Assembly (NCBI RefSeq): GCF_001953865.1
Contig: NZ_MQUQ01000025.1
Coordinates: 62,001-126,000 of the forward strand
Source of the DNA: Amycolatopsis coloradensis
GTDB taxonomy: Bacteria; Actinomycetota; Actinomycetes; Mycobacteriales; Pseudonocardiaceae
Length of the DNA: 64,000 nt
Direction: 5' to 3'
Shown: positions 1 to 26,372 of the stretch, one piece after another
How the letters are laid out: each line of letters starts with the position of its first letter
Numbering within the stretch: the first letter of the stretch is position 1
Position numbers and translations under genes: made by a program
The notes under the pieces: generated by a model
What the model was told of the DNA's origin: nothing
The model's input: the letters and a program-made list of their open reading frames with translations, nothing else
Database searches by the model: none

Positions 1-1861
1 TGACCACGGTTTCGAGCACGCCACGGCTGACCGCGTCACAGAGGATCGCGACGGGTTCGGCGTCGGCGACGATCGACCCGAGCCTGCCTGCCGGGTACTT
101 CGGGTCCAGCGGCACGTACGCGGCGCCCGCCTTGAGCACCCCGAGCAGCGCCGCGACGACGTCGACCGTGCGGTTGACGCTCACTCCGACGAGGCTTCCC
201 GGCCCGGCGCCCGCCCGCAGCAGCCGGTGGGCGATCTGGTGGGCGCGACGCCGCACGGCGCTGTAGTCGAGCACGGCGCCGCCCTGGTTGACCGCGGCCG
301 TGCCGGGTGTCCTCAGCACCTGCGCGTCGAACGCCGCGCCGATCGAGGTTTCGGCGGTGGTGGCCGGGGTCGCGGTGTCGTTCCATCCCGTCGTGAGCTG
401 GATGCGCTCGGGCTCGGTGAGCAGGTCGAGTTCGGGCAAGGGCGCGTCGGGACGCGAGACCCCGGATTCCAGCAGCCGCTCCAGATGGGCCAGCATCCGG
501 TCCATCCGGGCCCGGTCGAACAGGTCGGTGGCGAACTCGATGCCCATCTCGATACCGCCCGCCGACCGCTCGGCGACGCTGAGGGTGAAGTCGAACCGCG
601 CGGTCCCGCTGTGCAAGGGGACCGTCACGACGTCGACGTCGGCCATCCGTACCGGCTTGAGCAGCTCGTTGGTCTGCAGCAGCGCCACCTGGAACAGCGG
701 GTTGGTGTTGAGGTCGCGGACCGGATGCAGCTCGCTGACGAGCTGGTCGAACGGGACGTTCTGGTGCGTGTGCGCCGAGTAGACCGTGTCGCCCGCCCTG
801 GCCAGCAGTTCCCGGAACCCGGGCCCGCCCGCGGTGGACACCCGCAGCACCACGGTGTTGGCGAAGTAGCCGATCAGCGGTTCGAGCTCGGGCCGGGTGC
901 GCCCGGCGAAGGTGGTGCCCGCGACGATGTCGTTCTGGCCGGTGTAGCGGCTGATCAGCGCGGCGAGACCGGCGAGGGCCAACGGCAGCACCCGGGTCGA
1001 GGGGCCGCCGAGGCTGAGCAGCTCACGGTGCAGCTTCGCGGGCAGCAGCCGCTGGACCTGCTCCCCCGCCCAGCTCGGTTCGGCAGGCCGCGGCCGGTCG
1101 GCCGGGAAGCGCACGGTGTCCAGGCCGGCGAGGGTGCCGCGCCAGTAGTCGAGTGACGCGGCGCGCTCCGCCTGTGCGACCGGGCCGCGTTCCCAGTGCG
1201 CGAAGTCGGCGTACTGGATGGGCAGCACGGGCAGCACCGGGGGCCGTCCGGCCCGGCCCGCGGTGTAGAACTCGATGAGTTCCTTGGTCAGGACCTCGGT
1301 GGACCAGGCGTCCGTGGCGATGTGATGCGCGGCAAGCACGAGCAGGTGGTCGTCGGCGGCCATGCGGACCAAGGTGGCTCGGAGCGACGGGTCACGGGCG
1401 AGATCGAATACGCGCCGTCCGGCCTTGGTGACGACGTCCGCGGCCCAGCTTTCCCGCTGGGCGGGGTCGATCTCGCTCAGATCGACCATCGTGAACAGGT
1501 CGTCGTCGGCCACCGTGCCCGGCCGCTGCCGCGGACCGTCGGGCGTGTTGAAGTAGTGCGTGCGCAGTGCTTCGTGCCTGCCGACCAGCCCGATCACCGC
1601 GCGCCGCAGCAGCTCCGGGTCGAGCGGTCCGTGCAGGCGCAGGCCGAGCGAGGTGTTGTAGAGCGGCTTTCCTTCGGCCCACTGGTGCAGCAGCCACAGC
1701 CGCTGCTGGGCGAAGGACAACGGGAGTGGTTCGTCACGACCCACCACGGGCACCCGGTCGACCGGCCGCTGAGCGGCCCGGCGCGCCCGCAGCTCGGACA
1801 CCAGCGCCGCGCGCTGGGCCGGGCTCAGCCGCCCCAATCGCTCCTCAGTGCTCTCCTGCAT
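1..1861 (-). CDS. Non-ribosomal peptide synthetase, C-A..., 3' part missing at window edge
   Basis: Peptide-assembly enzyme. The gene reads leftward from ATG at 1861, preceded by a GAGGAG ribosome site, and is still open at position 1, so only about 620 residues are visible. After a short N-terminal linker there is a full condensation domain: SFAQQRLWLL near residue 50, HHIATDAWST near residue 175, and an N-terminal half like an LCL-type domain. The core motif is HHxxxDA rather than HHxxxDG. An adenylation domain then begins (LKAGAAYVPLDPKYP is visible) and is cut before its substrate pocket, so the substrate cannot be read. It is part of the NRPS cluster. The palindrome at 2001-2059 separates it from the acetyltransferase gene upstream, and any genes beyond the window edge, such as the missing LysW/LysX, would lie downstream of it. 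Confidence 0.93.
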   Translation of the reverse strand, partial: MQESTEERLGRLSPAQRAALVSELRARRAAQRPVDRVPVVGRDEPLPLSFAQQRLWLLHQWAEGKPLYNTSLGLRLHGPLDPELLRRAVIGLVGRHEALRTHYFNTPDGPRQRPGTVADDDLFTMVDLSEIDPAQRESWAADVVTKAGRRVFDLARDPSLRATLVRMAADDHLLVLAAHHIATDAWSTEVLTKELIEFYTAGRAGRPPVLPVLPIQYADFAHWERGPVAQAERAASLDYWRGTLAGLDTVRFPADRPRPAEPSWAGEQVQRLLPAKLHRELLSLGGPSTRVLPLALAGLAALISRYTGQNDIVAGTTFAGRTRPELEPLIGYFANTVVLRVSTAGGPGFRELLARAGDTVYSAHTHQNVPFDQLVSELHPVRDLNTNPLFQVALLQTNELLKPVRMADVDVVTVPLHSGTARFDFTLSVAERSAGGIEMGIEFATDLFDRARMDRMLAHLERLLESGVSRPDAPLPELDLLTEPERIQLTTGWNDTATPATTAETSIGAAFDAQVLRTPGTAAVNQGGAVLDYSAVRRRAHQIAHRLLRAGAGPGSLVGVSVNRTVDVVAALLGVLKAGAAYVPLDPKYPAGRLGSIVADAEPVAILCDAVSRGVLETVV

Positions 1862-2000
1862 CGCGCTCCTCGCCCGCCCAGCGGAAATGGTCGTCACGCA
1901 TCCCCTGGCAGCGTGTCCCGCGCTGGTTCCCCGAACCAGTCGGGGAATTCCCCTACCCATGGGCAGGCAGCCGCCCCGGCAAAGTGCTGTGCCTGCTCCC

Positions 2001-2059
2001 AAGTACATGAAGGTCCCCTTCCTTGCGCCTAGCGCAATGAAGGGGACCTTCATGTACTT
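2001..2059. repeat. Palindromic element, copy 1
   Basis: Perfect 20-base arms (2001-2020 and 2040-2059, beginning aagtacatgaaggtcccctt) enclose a second stem ttgcgc/gcgcaa with loop cta. It is one of three related palindromes in the cluster. The stop codon of the acetyltransferase gene (TGA, 2050-2052) lies inside the right arm. Likely a stem-loop terminator or small dispersed repeat. Confidence 0.9.
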
Positions 2060-2892
2060 CCGGCGCGGCAAGTAAGCGCTGGGGCAGGAAGCCGCCACCA
2101 GGCAAGGAACTCCGGATCACCCAGGCGGGGCTGAGCGTAGGCGGGGATCAGCCCGGCCTGTCCCGGAAAACGGTCCACCGTGTCCGGGCCGGGTGCGGCG
2201 CCCGGTGCCCAGTCGACTCCGCGCAGCACGGCCGCACCGGCGATGCCGCGGTGCCGGTCCAGTCCGGCGGAGACGCCGTCGGGAGCCGGGCCGGTCACGC
2301 GGACGACACCGGTCGGCCGGTCTTCCCACCACGACCGGACGAGCCCCGGTGGCGACGCGGCGAGGTCGGCGGGGTCGGGATAGGTCAGCGACGGCACCGG
2401 CTCGGCGAGCACGCGTTCCATGTGCACCTCGGACAGCGGCTTGTCCGAGGCCGCGAAGTGCCGGACGCTGCGATAGCCGGCGCTGGTGTAGAAAACCGGG
2501 TTTCCCCGCTCCACGACCGCGTCGAGCACCACGTGTGACGCGCCTGCCGCCAGAGCGTCGGCCTCGACGGCCCGCAGCAGCCGGCGGCCGACGCCGAGAC
2601 GGCGGGCCCGCGGGGACACCGCCAGCCTGCGCACCGACCACGCCCGCCCGTCCGGCAGGGCGCGGACCGTGCCCAGCAGGACCGGCCCCGCGGTCGCGGT
2701 CCACAGCCGGTGCCCGCCGTCGAGGTCGGCCAGCACCCCGGCCGCGTCCTCCCTCGCGCCGTCGGCGACCGGAAGCCCGGGGACGAGGTCGCCCGCCCGA
2801 TAGGCGGCACTGGTGAGCGCGGCCACCCGCCGGGCGAGCCCGGCGCTCACCGGCGTCGCGACGGTGATCGTCAAACTGTCCACTGTGGACAT
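2050..2892 (-). CDS. GNAT-family N-acetyltransferase
   Basis: Predicted acetyl-CoA-dependent acyltransferase of 280 residues. The GNAT core covers about residues 10-160. It includes the acetyl-CoA loop region VRRLAVSPRARRLGVGRRLL (an R-x-x-G-x-G/A type signature) and a following FYTSAGY motif typical of GNAT strand 5. The C-terminal 110 residues are less recognisable and carry several Trp residues. The ATG start at 2892 has a GGGGAG ribosome site. The gene is divergent from the C-A-T NRPS at 3057, and its last codons and stop come from the palindromic repeat. A role in modifying or detoxifying the cluster product is possible but is inference only. Confidence 0.8.
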   Translation of the reverse strand: MSTVDSLTITVATPVSAGLARRVAALTSAAYRAGDLVPGLPVADGAREDAAGVLADLDGGHRLWTATAGPVLLGTVRALPDGRAWSVRRLAVSPRARRLGVGRRLLRAVEADALAAGASHVVLDAVVERGNPVFYTSAGYRSVRHFAASDKPLSEVHMERVLAEPVPSLTYPDPADLAASPPGLVRSWWEDRPTGVVRVTGPAPDGVSAGLDRHRGIAGAAVLRGVDWAPGAAPGPDTVDRFPGQAGLIPAYAQPRLGDPEFLAWWRLPAPALTCRAGST

Positions 2893-3056: not shown

Positions 3057-6000
3057 ATGTCCATGCCGAATCCGCCAGCACGACCCGACGCCAGTCCGCA
3101 CGCAGGCCTCGCCGAAGCGCGCAAAGCGGTACTGGCGCTGCGGGAACGACAGCAGGCCCTCGGCCAGTCCGGGACCGGCCGAATCATGCCCGCCTCGCGG
3201 GACCGGAAGCTGCCGTTGTCGTTCGCCCAGCAGCGGCTGTGGTTTCTCGACCGGTGGGCGCAAGGCCGCCCGGTCTACAACTCCCCGCTGGTCCTGCGCC
3301 TGCGCGCGGACCTCGATGTCGACGCGCTGCGGCGCGCCCTGACCGACGTCGTCCTCCGGCACGAGGTGCTGCGCACCCGGTACCCCAGCGAGAACGGTGT
3401 GGCGTATCAGGAAGTCGACCCGGCGCCGGATCTACTGGCGTTGCCGGTGCACGACTTCTCCGGCGAACCGGATCCGGAAGCCGCGGCCGCCGGCACCGTC
3501 GAACGACTGGTTCGCGAACCGTTCGACCTCGGCACCGGACCGGTCTTCCGGCCCGCGCTGGCCAAGCTCGGACCGGCCGAGTACGTACTGGTGCTCGCCA
3601 TGCACCACATCGCCACGGACGGCTGGTCGACCGCCATCGTCCTGCGCGAGCTGGTCACCGCCTATCAGCGAGCCACCACCGGCGCCGCGGCCCCGCCGCC
3701 GCTCCCGGTCCAGTTCGCCGACTACGCCGTGTGGCAACGCGGCTGGCTGGCAGGCGAGGCGCCGAAGGCTCAACTCGAGTATTGGCGTGAGCAGCTCCGA
3801 GACCTGCCCACGCTCGACCTGCCCACCGACCGGCCCCGGCCGGCCGAGCGTTCCCAGGCGGGCGCGACCGAGGAGGTGCTGCTGCCGGAGTCGCTGGCCG
3901 GACGGCTCACCGAGGTGGCCAGAACCGAACGGGTCACCGAACTGACCGTCGCGCTGGCCACGTTCACCGCGATCATGTCGCGCTACAGCGGTCAGTCCGA
4001 CGTGGTCGTCGGCTCGATCTTCTCCGGCCGTACCCGGCCCGAGATCGACCCGCTGATCGGCTTCTTCGCGAACACCGTCGTGCTCCGGGTCTCGACCGCG
4101 GGCAACCCGACGTTCCGTGAGCTGCTGGCCCGCACCAGCGACACCGTCATCAAGGCGCACCTCAACCAGGACCTGCCCTTCGGCAAACTGGTCGACGAAC
4201 TCGGCCCCGACCGCGACCCCGGGCGCAACCCGCTGTTCCAGGTTTCGTTCACCCTGCAGCACGCGGGTGTGGAGTCGGCGACCGTCGGCGGGCTCGAGGC
4301 CGAGGTCTACCCCTTCCAGGTCGGCACCGCGCGGTTCGACCTCGCCGTCCAGCTCACCCAGGTCCCCGGGCGGGGCCTGCGGCTGTGGGCGGAGTACTCC
4401 ACGGAACTGTTCGACGTCGCGCGCATCCGGGGGTTGTTCGACCACTACCGGCGAGCGCTGGAGCTGTTCCTCGACGATCCGGGCCTGCGGCTGGGCGGGC
4501 TTCCGCTGCTCAGCGAAGCGGAGTACCAGACCATCGTCGTCGACGACAACCGGACCGAACGTGACTACGGCACTTCGGAGCTCTGCCTGCACCAGCTCTT
4601 CGAGTCCACAGTGGACCGGGTGCCGGACGCGGTGGCCAGCCGGTTCGAAGGCGCCTCGCTGAGCTATCGCGAACTCGACGAAGCGGCCAACAGGCTCGCC
4701 GCGCGGCTGATCGAGACCGGAGTAGGGCCGGAGACGGTCGTCGGGGTGCTGCTCGAACGCGGACCCGGCCTGCCCATCGCGTTCGCCGGCATCCACAAGG
4801 CGGGCGGGGCTTACCTGCCGCTCGACCCCGACCATCCGCCCGCGCGCCGGGAACTGCTGCTCACCGAAGCGCGCGCCGGAATCGTCGTGACGACCGAGGC
4901 GCTGGCCGGAACCGTCCCTCCCGGCGTCCGCACGGTCCGCGTCGACGATCCGTCGCTCGCCGGCCTGCCCGCCACCCGGCCGTCGGTCGAGGTCTCACCG
5001 GACAATCTGGCCTACGTGATCTTCACGTCCGGCTCGACCGGACGGCCCAAGGGCGTGCAGGTCTCGCACCGGTCCATCGCGAATTTCGCGCCCGCGGTGA
5101 TCGAACTGTTCGGACTCCGGGAAGGCGACCGCGTCCTGCAGTTCGCCAACCCGGCGTTCGACGTCAGCCTGTTCGACTTCTTCGGCGCGCTGTGCAGCGG
5201 GGCCACGCTCGTCCAGGCCCCGCGGTCGGATCTGCTGGATCCCGGGCGGCTGACCGGATTGATGCGGTCGGAGCGGGTCACCGTCACCGACCTGCCACCC
5301 GCCGTGCTGCGCCTGCTCTCCCCCGGCGACCTGCCGGACCTGCGTGCGTTGTTCGTCGGTTTGGAAGCCTTCCCCGGCGAGCTGGTCAACGCGTGGAACA
5401 CCGAGGGCAGGCAGTTCCACAACGGCTACGGGCCCACCGAGGCGACGGTCGCCTGCGTGGACTTCCGGTGCCCGCACGAGCATCACGACGCGATGCCGCC
5501 GATCGGCGTGCCGATGGCGAACTACCAGGCCTACGTCGTCGACCGGTTCGGCCAGCCGGTCCCGTCCGGCGTGCCCGGCGAGCTGCTCATCGGCGGCGTC
5601 GGAGTGGCCAGGGGCTACATGAACGCGCCGGGACCCACCGCGGAGAAGTTCGTGCCGGACCCGTTCGGCGGCACCGGAGCGCGGCTGTACCGGACCGGGG
5701 ACCTGGTCCGCCGCCGCGCGGACGGGAACCTGGAGTTCATCGGGCGCATCGACAACCAGGTCAAGATCCGCGGCCTGCGGATCGAGCCGACGGAGATCGA
5801 GCACGCCCTGCTGGCGCTCGACGGGGTCGACGACGCGGCCGTCGTGGTCTCCGGGTCGGGTGGCTCGGCCCAGCTGGTGGCCTATGTCGCGGGTGCCGAT
5901 GTGGATTCCGCGCGGCTGGGTACCGAACTGCGCGGCGCCCTGCCCGTGTACCTCGTGCCCACCCAGTTCGTGACCATGGCGGAACTGCCTCGCGCCGCCA

Positions 6001-6368
6001 GCGGCAAGCTCGACCGCTCGCGGTTGCCGGGTCTCACCCCCGGCGCCGTGGTCGTGGCCGCCGAGCCGCCGAGCACGGCCACGCAGCTCGCGGTGGCCGC
6101 GATCTGGCAGGAGATCCTCGGCGTCGAGAAAATCTCCCTGGGCGACGGGTTTTTCGCCATCGGCGGCAGTTCCCTCAAGATCACCCAGGTCGCCACCCGC
6201 GTTCACGAGACCTTCGGCGTCCGGCTGGAGCTTCGGGAGCTGTTCCAGTACGCCACCCTCGGCGAACTGGCCGAGCTCGTCGAGAAACGGGAGTTGGAAA
6301 ACGTGTCGGCGGACGAACTGGCCGCGCTGCTCGACGAGGTCGATCCGGACGGCGGGCCGACCCGATGA
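3057..6368 (+). CDS. Non-ribosomal peptide synthetase, complete C-A-T module
   Basis: Assembly-line module of 1103 residues. ATG 3057 is chosen because GAGGAG (3041-3046) lies 10 bases upstream; a longer frame opens at GTG 3000. The condensation domain (about 45-470) has the intact HHIATDGWST motif (residue 183 on). The adenylation domain (about 500-990) has FTSGSTGRPKG, GYGPTE, YRTGDL and the GKLDR lysine. The thiolation domain (about 1010-1085) has IGGSS, with the likely phosphopantetheine serine at 1039. Hand alignment to GrsA gives pocket residues D-V-F-D-F-G-G-V-A-K. This does not match a standard code I know; the acidic residue at the T278 position resembles arginine-type pockets and would suit a basic side chain. 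The gene overlaps the next gene by 4 bases, so the module is coupled to the acyl-CoA dehydrogenase pair. Confidence 0.96.
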   Translation: MSMPNPPARPDASPHAGLAEARKAVLALRERQQALGQSGTGRIMPASRDRKLPLSFAQQRLWFLDRWAQGRPVYNSPLVLRLRADLDVDALRRALTDVVLRHEVLRTRYPSENGVAYQEVDPAPDLLALPVHDFSGEPDPEAAAAGTVERLVREPFDLGTGPVFRPALAKLGPAEYVLVLAMHHIATDGWSTAIVLRELVTAYQRATTGAAAPPPLPVQFADYAVWQRGWLAGEAPKAQLEYWREQLRDLPTLDLPTDRPRPAERSQAGATEEVLLPESLAGRLTEVARTERVTELTVALATFTAIMSRYSGQSDVVVGSIFSGRTRPEIDPLIGFFANTVVLRVSTAGNPTFRELLARTSDTVIKAHLNQDLPFGKLVDELGPDRDPGRNPLFQVSFTLQHAGVESATVGGLEAEVYPFQVGTARFDLAVQLTQVPGRGLRLWAEYSTELFDVARIRGLFDHYRRALELFLDDPGLRLGGLPLLSEAEYQTIVVDDNRTERDYGTSELCLHQLFESTVDRVPDAVASRFEGASLSYRELDEAANRLAARLIETGVGPETVVGVLLERGPGLPIAFAGIHKAGGAYLPLDPDHPPARRELLLTEARAGIVVTTEALAGTVPPGVRTVRVDDPSLAGLPATRPSVEVSPDNLAYVIFTSGSTGRPKGVQVSHRSIANFAPAVIELFGLREGDRVLQFANPAFDVSLFDFFGALCSGATLVQAPRSDLLDPGRLTGLMRSERVTVTDLPPAVLRLLSPGDLPDLRALFVGLEAFPGELVNAWNTEGRQFHNGYGPTEATVACVDFRCPHEHHDAMPPIGVPMANYQAYVVDRFGQPVPSGVPGELLIGGVGVARGYMNAPGPTAEKFVPDPFGGTGARLYRTGDLVRRRADGNLEFIGRIDNQVKIRGLRIEPTEIEHALLALDGVDDAAVVVSGSGGSAQLVAYVAGADVDSARLGTELRGALPVYLVPTQFVTMAELPRAASGKLDRSRLPGLTPGAVVVAAEPPSTATQLAVAAIWQEILGVEKISLGDGFFAIGGSSLKITQVATRVHETFGVRLELRELFQYATLGELAELVEKRELENVSADELAALLDEVDPDGGPTR

Positions 6369-7516
6369 GCGGCGGCGTTCTGACCGACGCGGAGTTCCGC
6401 GGACGGCTCCGTGAGTTCTTCGCCGAAAAGCGGGTGCGGCGGGAGGTCGAGCGGATGCGACGGCTGCCGCCATCGGAGGAGACCGGGCGGATCGAGGTCT
6501 ACCGCTGGCTCGGCGAACGAGGCTGGCTCGCGCCGCACTGGCCGGTGGAGTTCGGCGGCCTCGGCCTCGGGCCCGCCGAGGCGGCCGCGCTGACCGAGGA
6601 GATGCTGCTGGCCGGTGTGCCCGACGACCTGCACACCCTCAGCATCGGCATCGTCGGCACGTTCCTGCTGCACAGCGGTTCGGCGGCGCAGAAGCAGACG
6701 CATCTGCCCTCGCTGGCCAGTGGCGAGCGGGCGGCCACGGTGCTGTTCACCGAGGCCGAGTGCGGGTCCGACCTCAGCGCGCTGCGCACCTCCGCGAGTC
6801 CGGAGGGCGGTGGCTGGCGGCTGCGCGGTTCGAAGATCTACAACCAGAAGTCGCAGTTCGCCGACATGGCGCTGTGTGCCGCGCGCACCCGGGACAGCGG
6901 TGTCGGCATGGACGGGATCACCCTGTTCCTCGTGCCGCTGACCTCCGCGGGCGTGCATGTCGAGACCGTGCCGTCGCTGGGCAACGACCGGTTCACCCAG
7001 GTGGTGATCGACGGCCTGCTGCTGACCGAGGACGCCGTCGTCGGCGCGCCACACGACGGCTGGACCCTGATGAACGACCTGCTGCTGCTCGAACGCACCG
7101 GCATCGACTTCCACGCCAAGGCCCGTAGCCTGTTCGACACGGTCATCCGGCGTGCCGCGCAGAGCGGGAAGCTCGATGATCCGGCCTACGCCCACCCTCT
7201 TGCCGAGCTCGACGCCCGGCTGTCGGCGGCGGAGGCACTGGCCTGGCGGCAGGTCCGCAACCTCACGCGGGGTGAGCCGGACCCGGTCGGTTCCGCGATG
7301 GCCAAGTGGTACGCCTCGGAGCAGGTCCGGCCGATCCTGCGCGCCGCCGCCGAAGTCGACGGGCTCGACGCGGCCCTGTCCGGATGGGACGAGGACGCCC
7401 CCGAAGACGGAGTGCTGGAGGCCGCCTACCGCACCGGCCCCAGCCACCGGCTCGCCTCCGGCACCTCCGAGGTGATGCTCTACCTGATCGCGGCGAGTGG
7501 ACTGGGACTTCTCTGA
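6365..7516 (+). CDS. Acyl-CoA dehydrogenase family protein, catalytic subunit of a likely pair
   Basis: FAD-dependent dehydrogenase-like protein of 383 residues. The start ATG overlaps the NRPS stop (ATGA, 6365-6368). Family features are the mid-domain FTEAECGSDLSAL flavin-binding segment, the beta-domain GSKIYNQKSQFADM, and a C-terminal helical domain ending in SGTSEVMLYL, where the Glu is in the position of the usual catalytic base. It is followed directly by a second, shorter family member lacking that Glu, an arrangement like the heteromeric dehydrogenases of steroid side-chain breakdown (FadE26/FadE27 type). In this cluster it probably desaturates an acyl or aminoacyl thioester, perhaps on the preceding carrier domain. 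The substrate is unknown. Confidence 0.9.
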   Translation: MSGGVLTDAEFRGRLREFFAEKRVRREVERMRRLPPSEETGRIEVYRWLGERGWLAPHWPVEFGGLGLGPAEAAALTEEMLLAGVPDDLHTLSIGIVGTFLLHSGSAAQKQTHLPSLASGERAATVLFTEAECGSDLSALRTSASPEGGGWRLRGSKIYNQKSQFADMALCAARTRDSGVGMDGITLFLVPLTSAGVHVETVPSLGNDRFTQVVIDGLLLTEDAVVGAPHDGWTLMNDLLLLERTGIDFHAKARSLFDTVIRRAAQSGKLDDPAYAHPLAELDARLSAAEALAWRQVRNLTRGEPDPVGSAMAKWYASEQVRPILRAAAEVDGLDAALSGWDEDAPEDGVLEAAYRTGPSHRLASGTSEVMLYLIAASGLGLL

Positions 7517-8580
7517 TGACCATGACGGCTGATCTCACCGCCCTGTTCGACGACGAGACCACGCCGTTGCTGCGACGGCTCGGGCAACGCGCGCGAGGCG
7601 CGGGGGCCGACGCCGCGCCCGACCCTGTCGACACCGAAACCCGGCAGCAGGTGTGGTCGGCGCTGACCGGGCTCGGCGCCCTGTCCGGGCTGCGGGCCCC
7701 GGCCGAGCCCGAAACCTTCGCCCGGCTGCTGGACGTGGCCGACCTGATGGGCGCGGCGCTGTACCAGAGCCCGTTCCCCGACACGGTCACCGCCGCCGAT
7801 CTGCTCGGCGTCAGCGGGAAAACCGTGCTGCGGGACGGGATCACCGAGCACGGCCGGACCGTCGCGCTCGCGCCGCGGGCCCACGGCACCGATCATCCGG
7901 CGAGCCCGGCGCCGTGGCAGGTCTCCCCCGACGGCACGACCGTCACCGCGGTCCGGAAGTTCGTCGGGTTCGCCGCCGAGGTCGACGATCTGCTGGTACT
8001 AGGTACGGCGAACGGCCGGGTGCTCGCCGGGCTGGTCGCGGTCGACCAGCCAGGGGTCCGGGCGCGCCGTCAGGACGACGTGGCGGCCGGCGACCTGTAC
8101 GCGGTGACGCTGGAGTCGGCCGTGGTCACCGACGGCGTCTTCGACGTCGACTACCCGGGTGTGCTCGCCAGAGCCAGGGTCAGGCACGGGGCCTACCTGA
8201 TCGGCGCGGCCAGGGCGGCGGTCCGGCTCACCGGCGCGTACCTGCGGTCGAGGAACGCCTTCGGCGCGCCGCTGGCCAAGTCGACGGTGCTCGCGCACCG
8301 GCTCGCCGGGCTGGCCGCCGAAGCCGAAGCGGTACGGGCGCTGGCCGACACGGCCGCCGAACAAGGCGCGGACGCCCGGGCCGGCGCGCGGATCGCGTTG
8401 CTGGCGGGCGAAGTCGTCCGGCGCAGTGCGGAGGAGGCTGTCCACCTGCACGGCGCGTTCGGCATGACCGACCGCTGCGACGCGCAGCTTTTCTACCGGC
8501 GCGCGCTCGTCGACGGCCAGTGGTACGGCACCGCCACCGCCCTCCGCGCCGAACTCGCGGCCGCGCTCGCCCGCCGATAG
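7516..8580 (+). CDS. Acyl-CoA dehydrogenase family protein, non-catalytic partner subunit
   Basis: 354-residue member of the acyl-CoA dehydrogenase fold. ATG 7516 shares one base with the preceding stop (TGATG). The C-terminal helical domain is recognisable: RHGAYLIGAARAAVRLTGAY, then RNAFGAPLAKSTVLAHRLA, and EAVHLHGAFGMTD near residue 312. The segment where the catalytic Glu would sit reads WYGTATALRAEL without it. The N-terminal domain is short and poorly conserved. This is typical of the beta-type subunit in alpha2beta2 dehydrogenases, so I infer a heteromer with the protein encoded just upstream. It is the last gene of the NRPS-dehydrogenase operon; the palindrome at 8736-8796 follows. 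Confidence 0.85.
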   Translation: MTMTADLTALFDDETTPLLRRLGQRARGAGADAAPDPVDTETRQQVWSALTGLGALSGLRAPAEPETFARLLDVADLMGAALYQSPFPDTVTAADLLGVSGKTVLRDGITEHGRTVALAPRAHGTDHPASPAPWQVSPDGTTVTAVRKFVGFAAEVDDLLVLGTANGRVLAGLVAVDQPGVRARRQDDVAAGDLYAVTLESAVVTDGVFDVDYPGVLARARVRHGAYLIGAARAAVRLTGAYLRSRNAFGAPLAKSTVLAHRLAGLAAEAEAVRALADTAAEQGADARAGARIALLAGEVVRRSAEEAVHLHGAFGMTDRCDAQLFYRRALVDGQWYGTATALRAELAAALARR

Positions 8581-18130: not shown

Positions 18131-18949
18131 ATGACGGACGAGCTGCTGGTGGTCAAGATCGGTGGTGCCGCCGGGGTCGACCCCGGCCGGGTATGCGCCG
18201 ATGTGGCGGCGCGGGTCCACCGGGGACGGCGGATCGTGCTGACCCACGGCGGCTCGGCGTCGGTGGACGAACTCGCGGGCGAACTCGGTGTGCCACAACG
18301 GGAACTGCTCTCCGCCAGCGGGGTGCGGACCCGCCATACCGACCCCGCGACCCTGCGGGTCCTGCAACTGGCGTTGCTGGGTGAAGTCCGGCCCGCGGTG
18401 CTCACCGAACTCGGCCGGGCCGGGATCCGCGCGGTCGGCCTGTCCGGCCTCGACGCGAACCTGCTGCGCGCCGAACGCCGCGTCGCGATCCGGGCGATCG
18501 TCGACGGCCACCGCGTGCTGGTCCGCGACGACCACAGTGGCCGGATCACCTCGGTCGACGGCGGCCTGCTGCGGCTGCTGCTCGACGACGGCGTGACGCC
18601 GGTCGTCTCCCCGCCCGCGGTCGCCGAAGACGGTCGTCCGGTCAACGCCAACGCCGACCGGATCGCCGCCGCCGTCGCCGTGGAACTGAAGGCGCGGACC
18701 CTGGTGTTCCTCACCGCGGCGCCGGGCCTGCTCGCCGATCCGGCCGACCCCGCCAGCCTGCTCGCCGAACACGCGCTCGGCGACGACACCCCGAAGATGG
18801 GCGGCGGGATGGGAGTGAAGCTGATCGCCGCACGAGAGGCCTTGCGCGGCGGCGTCGAGACGGTGATCATCGCGGACGGCCGGGCCGAAGACCCGGTCAC
18901 CCAGGCCCTCGACGGCGGCGGCACCCGCCTGCGCCTCGCCCCGGCCTGA
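18131..18949 (+). CDS. LysZ-like amino acid kinase (acetylglutamate/aminoadipate kinase family)
   Basis: 272-residue kinase, ATG 18131 with AGGAG seven bases upstream; a longer frame from 17984 lies inside the LysY gene and is rejected. Motifs follow LysZ closely: VVKIGGAAG at residues 7-15, THGGSA near 38, GLSGLDANLL near 115, NANADRIAAAVAV near 175, and a C-terminal IIADGRAEDPV. LysZ phosphorylates the side-chain carboxylate of an amino acid held on a carrier protein. The VKIGGAAG and GLSGLD forms favour LysZ over ArgB. It is the last gene of the operon; the third palindrome follows and probably terminates it. Confidence 0.87.
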   Translation: MTDELLVVKIGGAAGVDPGRVCADVAARVHRGRRIVLTHGGSASVDELAGELGVPQRELLSASGVRTRHTDPATLRVLQLALLGEVRPAVLTELGRAGIRAVGLSGLDANLLRAERRVAIRAIVDGHRVLVRDDHSGRITSVDGGLLRLLLDDGVTPVVSPPAVAEDGRPVNANADRIAAAVAVELKARTLVFLTAAPGLLADPADPASLLAEHALGDDTPKMGGGMGVKLIAAREALRGGVETVIIADGRAEDPVTQALDGGGTRLRLAPA

Positions 18950-19121: not shown

Positions 19122-21797
19122 CTAAGCCATTCGCGGCATGATGCCGGTGAACGCGGCGACCTCGGACCGCGACGAGACTTCGAGTTTGTCGAAGATGCGG
19201 CGCAGGTAGGTCTCGACGGTCTTGTGGCTGAGCACCAGCGCCCGCGCGATCTGCTGGTTGGTGCGACCGCGCGCGACGAGTTCGGCGACCTGGTTCTCCC
19301 TGGTGCTCAGCAGGCCCATCCGGGCGAGAACGACCTTGTCGAAGTCCGGTCCCGAGTCCTCGTCGCTTCGCCGGGCCTCCGCCGCACTGTCCTCTGTGGA
19401 CTCGCTGGCGACGTGGAACGCCCGCCCGGCCAGTGGCATCAGCACGTTGAACGGGCGCACCCCGAGCACGACCACGGCCGCGCGCAGCGTCCGCCACGCC
19501 CGGCCGGGATCGGCGCCCCATTGCAGGCAGGCCGCGGCCAGCAGGGTCAACCCGAACCGGTCGACCAACCCCGGCCGGGAACCCAGTCGTTCGTCGAGCG
19601 CGTGCCACAGCCGCGCGTCACCGTGTCTTCCGGCAGCGGCGCTCAACCCGGCCAGCATCGCGCACAACGATCCCGAATCGCCGGGTTCCGGCCCTTCACC
19701 GCCGCTGGCGATCACGTGCCCGATCTCCGCGCACAACCGCTTCGTCCGCGCCTGCAGGCCGGTGCTGCCGACGGGCTCCGCGAGCGCGCTGGCGTCTTCG
19801 GCGTGTTCGACGGCCGCGCCGAGCGCGCCGTCGGCCAGATACGCGGTGGCCAAGCCGAGGTGGAGCCTGCCGAGGACGTGGATTTGACGGTGCCGCTCCG
19901 CCAGCGCGAGTCCGCGGTTGTACTGCGCCAGCGCTTCCGCGGTACGCCCGGACCAGAGATTCGCCCAGCCCAGCCAGTCGAACACCTCGCAGACCACGGC
20001 CACGGTCGCGCCGGGGTCGGCGAGCCCGTTCAAGTGCCCGGCCGCCCGGTCCGCGGCCGCCGTCGCTTCGGCGCCGCGGCCCAGGGTGGCCAGCATGGCG
20101 CTGTACACGGCCAGCGCCCGCAAACCGGTGTCGTCGATGTCCCCGGGATCCTCGGCACCGGGTACGAGTCGTTCGACGCGCGCCAAGGAACCGGCGACAT
20201 CTCCGCCGCTGTCCAGCGAGGTCTCCGCGAGCCCCAGCACCACTCGCGCCGCGACTCCCCCGTCGGAGGTGTCGAGTCGCCGAGCCAGTTCGGCCACCTC
20301 CTCGAAGCGCCCGAGCAGCCGCAGTACCCGCAGATGCGATTCGGTGAGATCGGCCAGGGTCGAGGCGTCGAGATCGGCGCGGTGCTGCCACGCGGCGTGG
20401 TGTCCCGGAAGGCTTTCGGCCAGCAGTCCGGACAACGCCGTCGACCGCGCCAGCCGGGTGGCCAGCCGCCGCCGCTCGGCCGGGCCGTGGCCAGGCAGCC
20501 GCAGCAGGGTACGCAGCCAGCCCGACACCGTCGCCGGCATCCGGTCCCCGCTCTGCTCGACCGCCACCACCAGGGTCCGGACGTCGCTTTCGGTGGCCGG
20601 TTTCCCGGCCCGTTCGAGATGATGCGCCAGCTCGGCCAGCGGGGCACCGCGCTCCCGCAGCAGCCGGTAGGCCCTGGTGTGCGCGCCGAGTCGCCAGCCG
20701 CCACCCGCGTGGTGGTAGCAGATCGAGCGGACGACCGGATCGCGGAAGACCAGACCGTCGTTGCCGATTCCCACGCGCACCAGGTCTTGCGCGATCAGCT
20801 CGTCGAGGCCTTCGAGAGTGCGATCGTGGCCGAGTTCGGCCACCTCGGCCACCAGCGCCGAGTCGAAGCGGTCGCCGACGACGGCCGCGGCCTGCGCCAC
20901 CTGCCGGGCGAGCACGGGCAGTGCCTGAAGGTCGAGCCGGACCGAGGCGAACACCGGATGCGACAAGGGGCCGGGTGGGAGCACACCCGGATCGGCGCAC
21001 GCCACGTCTTCCGGCGATCCGGCCGCCAGCGCGCCGAGCAGGCCCGGTTTTCCGCCGTACTCGCGGAGCAGCTGCCTGCGGCGACCTGGCCGGATCTCCA
21101 TCGGGAGCAGGCGCAGCGCGCTCACCGCGTCCAGCGGGCCGAGTTCGAGCGAACGCGCGACACCGGACTCGACCGCGACGCTCAGCGCGCTGAGCAGTTC
21201 CGCCGGCGACTGACGGGGGCGGTGCGCGAGCACCAGCAGCAACGGTGCGTTCAGCGGCCGCCTGAGCAGGTGAAGGATCATTTCGATCGAGCCGGGCTGC
21301 GCGTTGTGCACGTCGTCGAGGATCAGCACGAGCGGCCGTCCGGCGGCCAGCTTTCCCAAGAGCGAGCGAATTCCTTGGTACGCCCAGTAACGCTGCTGCG
21401 GCGATTCGACGGAAGCACATTGGGCCGGATGGAGCACCGGGAAAATCCTTGGCAGGCAAGAGGCCGCGCGCGGGTCCAGCTCGGCCAGCAGCTGATTCCC
21501 GTCCGCGGCGAGCAAATCCTCCAGTGCGTCGACGAACAACGCGAAGTCGTTGGTCAGCGGCGAGGCCGTCGCTTGGCCGTGTGCGACACGAGCCCCGGTT
21601 CTCCTCGCCCGCTCTTCCAGCGCCGCCAGCAGCCGGGTCTTGCCCATTCCGGGCTCACCCGCGATCTCCAGTACCTTGCAGGTGTTCCCGGTGACCGTGG
21701 CGAGTGCGTGGTCGAAGGCCCCGAGTTCGGCCGTCCTCCCCCACATGCGAATTGGTTTGGATAACGCGGCGCGCACGACGGAATAACCCCCAGGCAT
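19122..21797 (-). CDS. LuxR-family LAL-type regulator with AAA ATPase domain
   Basis: Large cluster-situated transcription regulator of 891 residues. ATG 21797 is chosen because GGAAGGA lies about 9 bases upstream; the open frame continues to 22064 without family similarity. The N-terminal ATPase domain has Walker A GEPGMGKT (47-54) and a Walker B-like LVLILDDVH near 165. A long helical middle resembles MalT/TPR sensor regions. The C-terminus holds the LuxR helix-turn-helix: LSTRENQVAELVARG, then NQQIARALVLSHKTVETYLRR. LAL regulators commonly activate actinomycete antibiotic clusters. This one lies between the two halves of the cluster and is divergent from the halogenase operon, so it is the best candidate pathway activator. 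Confidence 0.92.
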   Translation of the reverse strand: MPGGYSVVRAALSKPIRMWGRTAELGAFDHALATVTGNTCKVLEIAGEPGMGKTRLLAALEERARRTGARVAHGQATASPLTNDFALFVDALEDLLAADGNQLLAELDPRAASCLPRIFPVLHPAQCASVESPQQRYWAYQGIRSLLGKLAAGRPLVLILDDVHNAQPGSIEMILHLLRRPLNAPLLLVLAHRPRQSPAELLSALSVAVESGVARSLELGPLDAVSALRLLPMEIRPGRRRQLLREYGGKPGLLGALAAGSPEDVACADPGVLPPGPLSHPVFASVRLDLQALPVLARQVAQAAAVVGDRFDSALVAEVAELGHDRTLEGLDELIAQDLVRVGIGNDGLVFRDPVVRSICYHHAGGGWRLGAHTRAYRLLRERGAPLAELAHHLERAGKPATESDVRTLVVAVEQSGDRMPATVSGWLRTLLRLPGHGPAERRRLATRLARSTALSGLLAESLPGHHAAWQHRADLDASTLADLTESHLRVLRLLGRFEEVAELARRLDTSDGGVAARVVLGLAETSLDSGGDVAGSLARVERLVPGAEDPGDIDDTGLRALAVYSAMLATLGRGAEATAAADRAAGHLNGLADPGATVAVVCEVFDWLGWANLWSGRTAEALAQYNRGLALAERHRQIHVLGRLHLGLATAYLADGALGAAVEHAEDASALAEPVGSTGLQARTKRLCAEIGHVIASGGEGPEPGDSGSLCAMLAGLSAAAGRHGDARLWHALDERLGSRPGLVDRFGLTLLAAACLQWGADPGRAWRTLRAAVVVLGVRPFNVLMPLAGRAFHVASESTEDSAAEARRSDEDSGPDFDKVVLARMGLLSTRENQVAELVARGRTNQQIARALVLSHKTVETYLRRIFDKLEVSSRSEVAAFTGIMPRMA

Positions 21798-22328: not shown

Positions 22329-23546
22329 ATGATCCAGGACAACAAGACCTCGCATTTGAGCAAGGAAGAGCTCGCTCAGTTCCATCGCGACGGCTACATA
22401 GGACCGTTCGATCTTTACGAGCCCGAAGAGATGGCCGCACATCTGGAAGCACTGAGGCCGAAGCTGCTCAATACCAAGAAAGCGATCTATGGTGACGGAC
22501 GGACCGTCTCCGGCAGCACGAACCTGGCGAACTACGACCGGCATCTCGACATCGACTTCCTGGCCGAGCACATCACCCGGCCGGAGATCGTCGACCGGGT
22601 CTCGAGCATCCTCGGCCCGGACACGCTGTGCTGGCGTTCGGAGTTCTTCCCCAAGTATCCCGGCGACGAGGGCACGGACTGGCACCAGGCGGACAACTTC
22701 TCCAACGTCGCGGGCTCGAAGCACCCCCAGATCGTCTGGCCGGAGGACGCGGAGTTCGGCGGCACGATCACGGTCTGGACGGCGTTCACCGAGGCGTCGG
22801 TGGACATGGGCTGCCTGCAGTTCATCCCCGGTTCCCACAAGTCCATGAACTACGACGAGTCCAAGAGCATGGACTACAACCCCGACCTGATCAACAAGGT
22901 CGACAAGGACGGCGTCCGGCGCGGCTTCTTCGGTTACGACTACCGCCAGCTGCAAAAGGACCCGAACTGGGCACCTGACGAGGCCAATGCGGTGTCCCAG
23001 GTGATGCGCCAGGGGCAGTTCATTATTTTCTGGTCGACGCTGATGCACGCCTCTCACCCACATCTCGGGCTCACCGACAATATGCGACTGGGTTTCGCCG
23101 GGCGCTATCTGCCCACCTCCGTACACGTCTACCCCCACTCCGATTCCTTGGCGGAGTTCGGCGGCAGCGCCAGCCTGGAGAAGTTCGGCAACGTGCTCGT
23201 CTCCGGCCAGGACACCTACGGGCACAACCGCTTTGTCGACTCCACCGTGAACGGCTACCGATTCCCGACCAGGGAAGGCAGCCCCGGTGGCTTCGGCCTG
23301 AGCGACGTCCAAGCCTGGCTCCTCGGCACGTGCCGGGAACTGGGCCTGCCCGCCCAGGACGTGAGTGCGAACTTCTTCGAGATGGGCGGCACGTCCCTCA
23401 CCGCGGTGAAGCTGATCGCCAAGGCGGAGCAAAGCTTCGGCGAAGACGCCCTGCTACCGGAGGACCTGTACAGCAGGAGCACGCTGCGCGAGATCGCGGC
23501 GAGCATCGAACGCAACAGCGGCGACCCCGTCTCGCCGGACGCCTGA
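22329..23546 (+). CDS. SyrB2-like Fe(II)/2-oxoglutarate halogenase fused to a peptidyl carrier domain
   Basis: 405 residues; ATG 22329 with GAAGGTG just upstream. Residues 1-315 match the SyrB2 halogenase family over their whole length, including [17 protein letters not shown] and [12 protein letters not shown]. The iron site reads H119-Q-A121: the Asp/Glu of hydroxylases is Ala, leaving room for chloride, which marks a halogenase. H240 ([10 protein letters not shown]) is the second iron ligand and the Arg in NMRLGF likely binds 2-oxoglutarate. Residues about 325-395 are a carrier domain with FEMGGTSL; Ser356 is the phosphopantetheine site. Such enzymes chlorinate an unactivated carbon of an aminoacyl thioester. 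Having enzyme and carrier in one chain is unusual; SyrB1/SyrB2 and KtzC/KtzD keep them apart. The adenylation domain is the next gene. Confidence 0.95.
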
Positions 23547-23652
23547 CCGGACGAACGAAGTCAGCCTGCCCGGCGTCCTCGACGCCGGGCAGGCACCCGT
23601 CCCCACCCCACGGTGAGACCGTGACGACCGCGACCAGAGGATCGACAAAGGC

Positions 23653-25251
23653 ATGAAGCGTCTCGTGCCCAGTGCCGACGCACGATCTGTCCACGCACTG
23701 GCCAATGTGGACACCGGGCAGCCCTATCCCGAAGAACTCAGCGCGAAGGACTTGTTCGAACAGCGCGCCGAGGCCGATCCCGACGCGGTCGCGCTCGTGC
23801 ACCGCGACCGCGAGATGACCTACCGGGAGTTGAACGCCTGCGCCAATCGGCTGGCGGTTTTCCTGATGGGACAAGGACTTCGTGCGGGAGAAGTCGTCGG
23901 GGTCTCCGTCGCCCGCTCACCCGAGCTGATCGCGACACTGCTCGCGGTGCTCAAGTGCGGCGCGGCGTACCTGCCGTTCGACGGCTCCTGGCCCGACGAT
24001 CGGCTGCGGGTCATGTTCGGCATCGCCGAATGCGAATGGCTGGTGACCGACCAGCCCGAACGGTGTGCCGGACGATTCCCGCTGCACCACGTCGTACCGG
24101 TGTCCGCGATGACCCCTTCGTCCATAGTGGACTATCACCCGGCGAATCCCGACACCCGTACGGGCGCGGACGATCTCGCCTACATCAACTTCACCTCGGG
24201 CTCGACAGGGCTGCCCAAGGGCGTCCCGATCCGACATCGCGGCATCACCCGGCTGGTCAGCGGCGCGCACTACACGCGGCTCGACGAGCACGCCGTCACG
24301 CTGCAACTGGCACCGATCAGCTTCGACGCGGCCACCTTCGAGATCTGGGGCGCGCTGCTCAACGGCGGCACCTGCGTGCTCTACCCGAGCGGTTTCGTCC
24401 GGCTGTCGGAACTGCGACATGTGGTGCGGGACAACGGGGTGACCACGGTCTTCCTGACCACGGCCCTGTTCAACACCCTGGTCGACAACGACCTCGACGC
24501 GCTCAGCAGCGTGGAGACGATCCTCACCGGTGGCGAGGCGCACTCCCTGCGCCATATCGGCCGGGCGCTGGCGCACTACGGCCCCGACAAGCTCGTCAGC
24601 GTCTACGGCCCGACCGAGTGCACCACCTTCGCCACCTACTACCCGGTCACCGAACTGCGGCCTGACGAGCTGGCGCTGCCGATCGGCAAGCCGATCCAGA
24701 ACACCCGCGCGTACCTCGTGCGCGACGGCAGGCTTTGCGCCGCCGGGGAGATCGGCGAGGTGTGCCTGGCGGGCCCCGGCCTGTCGCCCGGCTATCTCGG
24801 CATGCCGGACGCGACCAGCGAACGTTTCGTCGACTACGAGATCGACGGTGTCCAGGAACGGCTGTACCACACCGGCGACCTCGCCTACTTCCGCACGGAC
24901 GGCATGCTGGTGTTCCAAGGCCGCGACGACGACCAGGTGAAGATCAACGGCCACCGCGTCGAACTGGGTGAAGTCCGGCATGTGCTCGGCACCCACCCCG
25001 AGGTCAGGCAGGTGTTCGTCACGGTGAACCGGCCGGAAGTCGGTGAAGCGGCCATGCTGGCTTTCGTGGTCGCCGACGCGCCCGGCTGCACCCCGCTCGC
25101 CCTGCGTGCCTATCTGCGGCAGCGGCTGCCGTCCTACCTGATCCCCTCGGTCATCGAGATTCGCGAGTCGCTTCCGTTGTCCCTGCACGGAAAGGTCGAC
25201 CGCCAGGTCCTGCTGTCCTCGCTACTGCCCACCGGAGGCCCCTCGTCGTGA
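23653..25251 (+). CDS. Stand-alone adenylation domain, Ile/Val-like pocket
   Basis: 532-residue amino-acid-activating enzyme without condensation or carrier domains. Core motifs are LKCGAAYLPFDGSWP, NFTSGSTGLPKG near 185, VYGPTECTTFA near 320, YHTGDLAYF near 410 and HGKVDRQ near the end with the catalytic lysine. Hand alignment to GrsA gives the pocket D-A-F-L-L-G-V-T-F-K, close to known isoleucine/valine-type codes. It probably loads that residue onto the carrier domain of the halogenase fusion encoded 106 bases upstream, the role of KtzB in kutzneride and SyrB1's A domain in syringomycin biosynthesis. It overlaps the following flavoprotein gene by 4 bases (GTGA). The pocket reading is manual and could be off at one or two positions. 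Confidence 0.93.
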   Translation: MKRLVPSADARSVHALANVDTGQPYPEELSAKDLFEQRAEADPDAVALVHRDREMTYRELNACANRLAVFLMGQGLRAGEVVGVSVARSPELIATLLAVLKCGAAYLPFDGSWPDDRLRVMFGIAECEWLVTDQPERCAGRFPLHHVVPVSAMTPSSIVDYHPANPDTRTGADDLAYINFTSGSTGLPKGVPIRHRGITRLVSGAHYTRLDEHAVTLQLAPISFDAATFEIWGALLNGGTCVLYPSGFVRLSELRHVVRDNGVTTVFLTTALFNTLVDNDLDALSSVETILTGGEAHSLRHIGRALAHYGPDKLVSVYGPTECTTFATYYPVTELRPDELALPIGKPIQNTRAYLVRDGRLCAAGEIGEVCLAGPGLSPGYLGMPDATSERFVDYEIDGVQERLYHTGDLAYFRTDGMLVFQGRDDDQVKINGHRVELGEVRHVLGTHPEVRQVFVTVNRPEVGEAAMLAFVVADAPGCTPLALRAYLRQRLPSYLIPSVIEIRESLPLSLHGKVDRQVLLSSLLPTGGPSS

Positions 25252-26372
25252 CCACGAACCATGGCGGCCACGAGGACTTCCGCACCACTGTGCGGTCCAC
25301 TTTGGATACTATCGTGACGCCGAACGCACCGAAGTGGGAAGCCCAAGGCCACATCTCCGCGTCGGGATGGCGAGAACTCGGCGACGCCGGCTTGCTCGCG
25401 CTACCGCACACCGGCGCGGATTTCCTGCGCAGCGCGGTGTTCCTCGACGAACTGGGCAACACCGGCTACGCCGGGATCCGGGCGTCGATCGGGGTGCACG
25501 CGTACATGGCGAGCTCGTATCTGCGGTTGTTCGGCAACGCCGGGCAGAAGGCGCGCTGGCTGCCGCCGGGCGAGCGCGGGGACAGGATCACGGCGCTGGC
25601 CATCACCGAACCCGAAGCGGGCACCGATCTACGGCACCTGACGACCATCGCCGACGCCGACGGCACGGGAGGGTACCGGCTGCGCGGGCGGAAGTCCTTT
25701 GTCGCCAACGGTTCCCAGGCCGGATACTTCATCGTGCTTGCCAGGACGAAGGCCACCGGCACCGACCGCGGGCTGCCCGGCGCGAGTCTGCTGCTCGTCG
25801 ACGCCGACGCCCCCGGGATAGCGCGTCGGCCACAGCCGATGCTGGGCTGGCGCGCCGCGGACATCACCGAGATCGAGTTCGACGACGTGCCGGTCGCGGC
25901 CGGGCAGCTGATCGGCAAGCCAGAGCGGGCGTTGTTGTACCTCGTGCGCGCGCTGGACTTCGAACGGCTCGTCGCCGGCCTGCTCGCGGTCGGCGGGGTC
26001 CGGTACTGCCTGCGGCTGCTGAAGGAGTTCGCGCGGTCGCACCATGTCGGAGACACTCGGCTGGGGTCGTACCAGGCTGTCCGGCACCGGATCGCCGATC
26101 TGGACGCTCAGCTGGAACTGGTCCACGGCTACGCCTACCAGGCGGCCACCCGGCAGAGTCTCGGGCAGCTGGACACGAAGTCGGCGTCCGTGCTGAAGCT
26201 GACCGCCACCGAACTCGCCGTGACGGCCGCGCAGGTCTGCGTCCAGTACCACGGCGCCCGCGGCTACCTCGACGAGGCGACCGCCGCACGGCTGTACCGC
26301 GACGCGATGGCGGGCACGATCGCCGCCGGGGCGAACGAACTGCTGCGGGACCACATCTTCGAATCGGCCTGA
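25248..26372 (+). CDS. Acyl-CoA-dehydrogenase-like flavoprotein, KtzA-like candidate cyclopropane former
   Basis: 374 residues, GTG start overlapping the adenylation gene, GGAGG ribosome site at 25234. The fold is complete: AITEPEAGTDLRHL near 120 (flavin), SFVANGSQAGYF near 150, a helical C-terminal domain, and GTIAAGANELLRD with a Glu at the usual base position. A single dehydrogenase-like flavoprotein next to a halogenase, carrier and Ile-type adenylation domain is the arrangement of ktzA-D. There KtzA closes a cyclopropane on the gamma-chloro-isoleucyl thioester by carbanion displacement of chloride, without net oxidation. The same reaction is the leading hypothesis here; ordinary alpha,beta-dehydrogenation is the alternative. 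It ends the recognisable cluster on the right. Confidence 0.9.
   Translation: MTTNHGGHEDFRTTVRSTLDTIVTPNAPKWEAQGHISASGWRELGDAGLLALPHTGADFLRSAVFLDELGNTGYAGIRASIGVHAYMASSYLRLFGNAGQKARWLPPGERGDRITALAITEPEAGTDLRHLTTIADADGTGGYRLRGRKSFVANGSQAGYFIVLARTKATGTDRGLPGASLLLVDADAPGIARRPQPMLGWRAADITEIEFDDVPVAAGQLIGKPERALLYLVRALDFERLVAGLLAVGGVRYCLRLLKEFARSHHVGDTRLGSYQAVRHRIADLDAQLELVHGYAYQAATRQSLGQLDTKSASVLKLTATELAVTAAQVCVQYHGARGYLDEATAARLYRDAMAGTIAAGANELLRDHIFESA

Follow-up and report, generated by a model that had tools for sequence, protein, structure and literature searches.

A gene cluster of Amycolatopsis coloradensis that probably joins a LysW-dependent azabicycle pathway to a halogenase–cyclopropane cassette

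The 64,000-nucleotide stretch of Amycolatopsis coloradensis DNA analysed here (the window) covers bases 62,001–126,000 of contig C18 (132,725 bp) in a genome of 9.05 Mb. Its left part carries genes of a LysW-dependent azabicycle pathway, nonribosomal peptide synthetase (NRPS) genes and a halogenase cassette. These belong to a cluster of 38 called genes at C18 25.2–88.4 kb, that is, from window −36.8 kb to 26,372. Judged from its genes, the cluster is likely to make a peptide with both an azabicyclic aziridine and an isoleucine-derived cyclopropyl residue. Genes were called on the whole of C18 with a codon-usage script, and start codons are estimates. The 38 cluster genes are g19–g57 minus g41, a 12-residue call that was dropped; all 38 were scanned against Pfam and ten of the proteins against NCBIfam. 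The genes, domains, motifs and conservation described below are read from the sequence. Within the window the cluster comprises the following genes, assigned by Pfam unless a solved relative is given (C, condensation; A, adenylation; T, carrier; TE, thioesterase domain).

1–1861, continuing to −3364, minus strand: g40, NRPS, C-A-T-TE with a luciferase-type monooxygenase inserted in the A domain
2050–2883, minus strand: g42, GNAT acetyltransferase
3186–6368, plus strand: g43, NRPS, C-A-T, code DVFDFGGVA
6365–7516, plus strand: g44, acyl-CoA-dehydrogenase-like subunit, best solved relative 8hk0 (E 1.2e-80)
7516–8580, plus strand: g45, second acyl-CoA-dehydrogenase-like subunit, the likely partner of g44
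8813–9523, minus strand: g46, sulfotransferase (Sulfotransfer_5)
9663–12722, plus strand: g47, NRPS, C-A, code DMYSGGLYC
12742–13866, plus strand: g48, LysK-like M20 hydrolase (release from LysW)
13882–15228, plus strand: g49, DegT-type aminotransferase, best solved relative 8gyh (E 4.7e-130)
15225–16073, plus strand: g50, transketolase N-terminal half
16070–17080, plus strand: g51, transketolase C-terminal half
17077–18102, plus strand: g52, LysY-like phosphate reductase
18131–18949, plus strand: g53, LysZ-like amino-acid kinase
19122–21797, minus strand: g54, large LuxR-type regulator, separating the azabicycle operon from the cassette
22329–23546, plus strand: g55, SyrB2/CytC3-type non-haem iron halogenase fused to a carrier (PhyH-carrier)
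23653–25251, plus strand: g56, stand-alone A domain, code DAFFLGVTF
25248–26372, plus strand: g57, acyl-CoA-dehydrogenase-like flavoprotein

The remaining genes lie to the left of window position 1, in C18 order.

g19: glyoxalase-like, first gene of the cluster
g20: PhyH protein with a WHQD motif, and therefore hydroxylase-type
g21: NRPS, C-A-T, code DVQFIGEV, C motif HQIAFD
g22: NRPS, acyl-AMP-ligase-like domain followed by T, C, A and T
g23: LysW, 56 residues, PF21344 at 62 bits (cut-off 27), tail EEDWGE
g24: AziU3 homologue, Pfam match to BtrH_N alone
g25: AziU2 homologue, no Pfam match
g26: short relative of part of g25 (38% over 45 residues, E 2e-05)
g27: LysX
g28: 2-oxoglutarate oxygenase
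g29: NRPS, C-A-T
g30: C-T protein with an A-domain remnant (A-less module)
g31, g32: thioesterases, serine in the nucleophile motif
g33: NRPS, C-A-T, code DMYSGGLYC
g34: penicillin-amidase-type acylase, Pfam match of 808 bits
g35: major facilitator superfamily exporter
g36: M20 hydrolase
g37, g38: CysNC-like and CysD-like, for synthesis of 3'-phosphoadenosine 5'-phosphosulfate (PAPS), by Pfam
g39: MbtH

An earlier note, made from the window alone, had placed a cluster at positions 1–26,372. The genes that it named (LysK-, LysY- and LysZ-like genes, split transketolase, DegT enzyme, sulfotransferase, NRPSs, dehydrogenase pair and halogenase cassette) are all found in the Pfam and NCBIfam scans. 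Its right edge also stands: conservation ends at 26,372, which is the right edge of the cluster. When the rightward genes g58–g74 (window 26.8–44.5 kb) were compared by tblastn at E 1e-10 with the fetched stretches of seven relatives, only the helicase-like g68 matched (43%, partial, in genome G064). On the left the cluster as drawn there is cut short only by the end of the window. The window contains the first 1,861 of the 5,226 bases of g40, which encode the C domain and the beginning of the A domain.

The gene set for LysW-mediated synthesis of diaminodihydroxyheptanoate (DADH) is all present. It consists of g23, g27, g53, g52 and g48, plus the adjacent g49–g51. On NCBIfam models, g53 scores 242 bits as a [LysW]-aminoadipate kinase (cut-off 223), and g48 scores 337 bits as a [LysW]-lysine hydrolase, under the cut-off of 363. 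The suggestion in the earlier note that such a pathway is joined to a halogenase cassette gains support from genes beyond the window, where LysW, LysX, PAPS synthesis and AziU3/AziU2 homologues are encoded. The two AziU3/AziU2-type subunits, g24 and g25, are encoded together. g24 matches the solved AziU3/AziU2 pair (7wuw) at E 2e-59 and the Azi29/Azi28 pair (8gs1) at E 1.5e-59; the corresponding values for g25 are 2.4e-41 and 2e-41. Beyond these pairs, g24 has no further match up to E 1, and g25 has five at E 0.4–0.7. AziU3/U2 and Vzb10/11 are reportedly the catalysts of aziridine formation, according to Kurosawa et al. in 2022.

The sulfotransferase g46 is a candidate for sulfating an amino alcohol ahead of aziridine closure, and g46 plus the PAPS enzymes g37 and g38 fit such a predicted sulfation step. 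A solved-structure search with g46 gave 67 weak matches, the best 60 of which were all antibody or nanobody chains, and was discarded as meaningless. A passage of PMC9570651, citing Kurosawa et al. (2022), describes the sulfation of DADH and the displacement of the sulfate by the neighbouring amino group to give the aziridine.

The C-A-T module g43 most likely handles the azabicycle residue or its precursor, because its specificity code is nearly constant and the dehydrogenase pair adjoins it. The code DVFDFGGVA occurs in eight of the nine azabicycle clusters read for it (G000, G086, G064, G244, G201, G353, L023 and L025), and the ninth, G042, has DTFDFGGVA. The dehydrogenase pair follows g43 in G000, G086, G064, G244, G201 and G353. 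An AlphaFold model of g44 built from a two-row alignment has a mean predicted local distance difference test (pLDDT) score of 42. An AlkZ-type DNA glycosylase was considered as an in-cluster self-resistance gene; the genome holds eight PF06224 matches, none of them on C18.

The cassette begins with the halogenase–carrier fusion g55. In the solved-structure search, g55 matches SyrB2 at E 3.1e-134 and CytC3 at E 8.1e-123, and it scores 444 bits on the chlorinating enzyme model TIGR01762 (cut-off 226). Its iron-site motif, like that of the orthologues in G086, G064 and G244, is DWHQA, in which HxA replaces the HxD/E of hydroxylases. HxA is found in seven of the eight halogenase sequences compared, and the eighth has HxS. 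The carrier domain contains a GGTSL motif; it is fused to the halogenase here and in G086, and in G064 and G244 a short gene of its own encodes the carrier. For the A domain g56 the code reads DAFFLGVTF (nine positions given, the tenth unread). The same code is present in all four cassettes linked to azabicycle genes and in a free-standing cassette of G009, and G223 has DAFFLGMTF. Passages of PMC2533009 and PMC13122637 assign such a code to isoleucine.

The third enzyme, g57, is a candidate KtzA-type cyclopropane former. Its glutamate in LDFERLV aligns with QERLL of human long-chain acyl-CoA dehydrogenase (LCAD), a residue that we take to be the catalytic base of LCAD. G009 and G223 have the halogenase, A domain and flavoprotein in this same order without linkage to azabicycle genes, and the cassette is 74/57/58% identical to that of G223. 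Within about 65 kb of G223 (L098–L099, G223:C1 ~10.04–10.11 Mb) lie a pair of strong Trp-halogenase matches, a match to FMN_bind_2 and another iron halogenase, this one with HQS; the locus appears to fit a kutzneride-type cluster. Such strong Trp-halogenase matches are not confined to G223, being present elsewhere in the five others searched as well. In G134 a halogenase is accompanied by an A domain of a different code, DIWLTGLCI, and nothing in the 20 kb fetched matches g57. In G064 (L061:9282-11287) and G244 (L068:4040-6039), a sodium/hydrogen-exchanger-like gene and a thioesterase follow the cassette, an arrangement not seen in the window.

It is unlikely, but deserves weight, that the single cluster instead makes a chlorinated or unsaturated peptide, with the halogenated residue keeping its chlorine or g57 catalysing elimination or dehydrogenation. 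In its favour, no other enzyme of the cassette is as well supported as the halogenase, and the solved relatives of g57 are acyl-CoA dehydrogenases; however, the cassette order recurs in G223 alongside kutzneride-like markers, and a passage of PMC12615548 calls the chlorination by KtzD cryptic, a step that prepares the cyclopropyl ring.

The NRPS genes would supply the peptide backbone. In NCBIfam the best fit for the first domain of g22 is to acyl-AMP ligases, so that a fatty acid probably starts the chain. The A domains of g33 and g47 share the code DMYSGGLYC. Those of g22 and g29 have DVPHMSTVD and DVPHTSAVD, which resemble a serine code at five positions, and g21 has DVQFIGEV. The order of the middle modules is not fixed by gene order. 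The terminal module g40 combines a glycine-like code, DILQLGMVW (DILQFGMVW in G086), with a GWSLG motif in the thioesterase domain and a monooxygenase that scores 490 bits on TIGR04020 (cut-off 244). A passage of PMC12283262 describes four glycine-activating domains with an inserted monooxygenase, all of code DILQLGMIWK, in which the inserted domain cleaves the glycine backbone. Because g40 has both the glycine code and the inserted monooxygenase, the product of this strain may carry a terminal amide.

The association of the two halves was followed across a family sample of 390 genomes, among them that of the window, with four or five first-look candidates scored per genome, so that counts may be low. 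Relatives of the DegT enzyme (E 1e-90 or better) are found in 22 of these genomes, of the halogenase (E 1e-60 or better) in 30, and of AziU3 (E 1e-20 or better) in 15; an even sample of the phylum has AziU3 relatives in 2 of 396 genomes, own included. DegT and halogenase relatives occur together in five genomes, one of which, G062, has them 1.3 Mb from each other. The remaining four of the 390 represent three genera, and in these the halves are linked, with the DegT and halogenase starts 8–14 kb apart. These are G000, the window's own genome; G086, of the same genus; and G064 and G244, of two other genera. G183, a fragmented assembly (74% complete, 1,020 contigs), has relatives of AziU3 and of the halogenase on different contigs and no DegT relative at the threshold, and stands outside the linkage count.

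Reciprocal best hits were obtained for 38 of the 38 cluster genes in G086, 32 in G064 and 37 in G244, where g20 was scored missing though a 79% match is fused to the g21 orthologue. The regulator g54 is kept in G086, G064 and G244. In G064 and G244, LysX and LysW are encoded inside the operon that lies on the window side here, and AziU3/U2 in the other arm. Gene order thus differs between genomes, and the linkage has therefore survived rearrangement. Twelve azabicycle proteins are 77.9% identical between G000 and G064, 75.7% between G000 and G244, and 75.3% between G064 and G244. For three cassette proteins the values are 75.2%, 71.4% and 72.7%, respectively; the two lower values change rank between the sets. 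The halogenase tree (14 rows chosen from 34 listed matches) and the azabicycle tree (four joined proteins, six genomes) both nest as (((G000,G086),G064),G244). The G064 fork is supported at 90/90 in the former and 81/85 in the latter, and the linked halogenases group at 94/96.

Given the linkage in four genomes, the reciprocal best hits, the same branching and the similar divergence, the whole has most likely been inherited as one cluster. The four-genome comparison left a low probability for two clusters adjacent by chance. The possibility raised with the original annotation, that the halves are independent, is countered at the genome level by the four linked genomes in three genera and by the congruent divergence. 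Two neighbouring pathways, one making an azabicycle peptide and the other serving a separate molecule or another assembly line, would account for the cassette standing alone in G009 and G223, for LysW/AziU3 clusters without a cassette in G201, G353 and G042, and for the oppositely directed regulator gene that divides the cassette from the rest. Such independence is nevertheless quite improbable, as the linkage is kept despite internal rearrangement, the divergence and branching of both halves are congruent, and conservation stops after g57.

A contig scan with the DegT enzyme gave six loci, four from named Streptomyces and two from metagenome-assembled genomes. Of the four Streptomyces loci, L023–L025 have AziU3/AziU2 relatives and CysD-like matches, and L022 is only 4.9 kb long; no halogenase lies within the fetched flanks of the four. 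G201 (L069–L071) and G353 (L072–L074) contain a sister cluster type, with LysW/AziU3/U2 and relatives of g43–g45 in both. The G201 cluster also has an acyl-AMP-ligase NRPS and a serine-hydroxymethyltransferase-like gene. No halogenase, acylase or PAPS match was found in the fetched stretches of either sister cluster. A relative of the acetyltransferase g42 sits with azabicycle genes in nine of the eleven other loci compared, the exceptions being G214 and L022.

The reactions, their order and the product are inferred from these genes, and for the single cluster that we favour they would run as follows. LysX would attach glutamate to LysW, LysZ and LysY would phosphorylate and reduce it, the split transketolase would add two carbons, the DegT enzyme would aminate the product, and LysK would release DADH. 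The sulfotransferase g46, supplied with PAPS by the CysD and CysNC homologues, and the AziU3/AziU2 pair would close the aziridine. Loading and oxidation of the residue en route to the azabicycle are probably the work of g43 together with the dehydrogenase pair g44/g45. In the cassette, g56 would load isoleucine onto the carrier domain of g55, and the halogenase part of g55 would chlorinate it. g57 would then abstract the alpha proton, and the carbanion would displace chloride to form the cyclopropane, as in kutzneride KtzD/KtzA. An A-less module, perhaps g30, would receive the cyclopropyl residue in trans. The chain would start at the acyl-AMP-ligase-like domain of g22 and end at the glycine module g40, whose monooxygenase may cut glycine and leave the terminal amide. 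The fatty acyl mask is probably kept until the acylase g34 strips the acyl group, either on export through g35 or afterwards. Near the start of g34 is a run of hydrophobic residues (judged by eye); the protein also has a GSNGW motif, and it matches the PvdQ model of NCBIfam weakly (41 versus 950 bits).

More tentatively, the cluster could represent a distinct family of fatty-acyl-masked peptide prodrugs, in which a DNA-alkylating azabicyclic aziridine is combined with an isoleucine-derived cyclopropane made by cryptic chlorination. A penicillin-amidase-type acylase would unmask the peptide at the membrane or outside it, and the gene set would be inherited as a unit in several genera. Such a natural product would have two three-membered rings of different origin. 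It would also place a kutzneride-type cassette outside the kutznerides and the AziU3/AziU2 aziridine enzyme in a new setting, with the acyl mask as possible self-protection against an alkylating agent. Since the cluster is kept in four species with differences, such as the lack of the A-less module and of the terminal monooxygenase in G064, several of these steps are testable.

Several features weigh against the proposed route to a peptide with both rings. No NCBIfam model reaches its cut-off for g57 (best 156 versus 650 bits), and this third enzyme of the cassette could catalyse another reaction. With own sequences as queries at E 1e-10, the stretches fetched for the G201 and G353 clusters gave no sulfotransferase or PAPS match. 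The first domain of g22 scores 514 bits on NF004509, below the acyl-AMP-ligase cut-off of 775. The HHxxxD motif is altered in two of the eight C domains, those of g47 (HPVACD) and g21 (HQIAFD), and the residue following it differs in g22 and g40. No carrier domain was detected by Pfam in g47. The G064 orthologue of g40 is without the monooxygenase and appears degenerate; the terminal amide is thus not common to all. G064 keeps the cassette yet has no g30 orthologue, and C-T proteins also occur in G201 and G353 with no halogenase nearby; both observations weaken the A-less module as a cassette signature. SyrC and CmaE are Cys-type aminoacyl shuttles. No such Cys transferase was found in the cluster, g31 and g32 having serine in the nucleophile motif.

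The missing carrier and altered C motif of g47, the altered C motif of g21 and the mostly lost A domain of g30 would also be expected if the cluster were silent or decaying in this strain. We regard this as very improbable: G086 keeps all 38 genes at 85–100% identity, and the carrier-less g47 and A-less g30 are common to G244. The g47 C motif is HHVACD in G086 and G244, and its alteration here is possibly a recent loss.

Every part of the proposed single cluster has a known relative, and the combination was not met in the open-licence literature looked at. It resembles the azinomycin cluster in its homologues of AziU3/AziU2 (7wuw) and Azi29/Azi28 (8gs1), and in the kinase, reductase, split transketolase and aminotransferase for DADH described in a passage of PMC9570651. 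Unlike azinomycin, it adds the LysW route, the halogenase cassette, the acylase and the glycine-monooxygenase module. No polyketide synthase or ketosynthase domain was detected by Pfam in any of the 38 genes, and the azinomycin-type naphthoate part is absent. The LysW, LysX, LysY, LysZ and LysK-like set is shared, by published descriptions, with vazabitide A and ficellomycin, and a passage of PMC9570651 names a carrier-protein route to DADH for vazabitide A. No halogenase cassette is mentioned for these two clusters in the excerpts of open-licence papers among the matches listed. In the same excerpts and matches, no cluster combining both halves is described; subscription papers and MIBiG were outside the scope. 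Among the matches listed, no paper treating at least two of azinomycin, ficellomycin, vazabitide and kutzneride names kutzneride.

The kutzneride cassette consists of halogenase, carrier, isoleucine-coded A domain and flavoprotein genes in that order, the same order as in the window (KtzABCD); it differs from that of the window and of G086 in that the halogenase and carrier are fused in the latter two. The six Trp_halogenase matches of the genome are all on contigs other than C18. The halogenase resembles SyrB2 and CytC3 in sequence and in its HxA iron site; it differs in the C-terminal fusion of the carrier and in the isoleucine code of the separate A domain, the substrate of SyrB2 being threonine. 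Like other terminal modules with a glycine monooxygenase, which we take to be of the MtaG/MelG type, g40 has a luciferase-type domain within a glycine-coded A domain, followed by T-TE; it differs from them in its place in an azabicycle cluster.

A second NRPS block, g1–g18, adjoins the cluster on the left at C18 93–23,234 (window −61,907 to −38,766). It includes an ornithine N-oxygenase fused to an FMN_bind_2 domain, a DUF6002 gene, an Asn-synthase-like gene, and an A-T/P450/two-thioesterase run. The ornithine N-oxygenase/FMN_bind_2 fusion probably points to piperazate. If g1–g18 were included, a larger cluster could make a piperazate-containing, kutzneride-like peptide. The block adjoins the cluster in G086 too, and an FMN_bind_2 match lies near the G223 cassette, as such a larger cluster would predict. 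This extension is nonetheless rather improbable, since most of g1–g18 lacks a close counterpart in the stretches fetched from G064 and G244, two genomes with no FMN_bind_2 match at all. No piperazate enzyme is found in the conserved cluster, and the FMN_bind_2 match of C18 is the one in g1–g18. Among the relatives compared, the block is fully matched in G086 alone. For its NRPS, MbtH and thioesterase genes, the matches elsewhere are to other genes, and the 14-residue call g11 is unmatched everywhere. The block is treated as a neighbour of the cluster and not as a part of it. On the other side of the cluster, a UvrD-type helicase-like protein is encoded at window 35650–37707 (minus strand) and has a 43% partial match just outside the G064 cluster.

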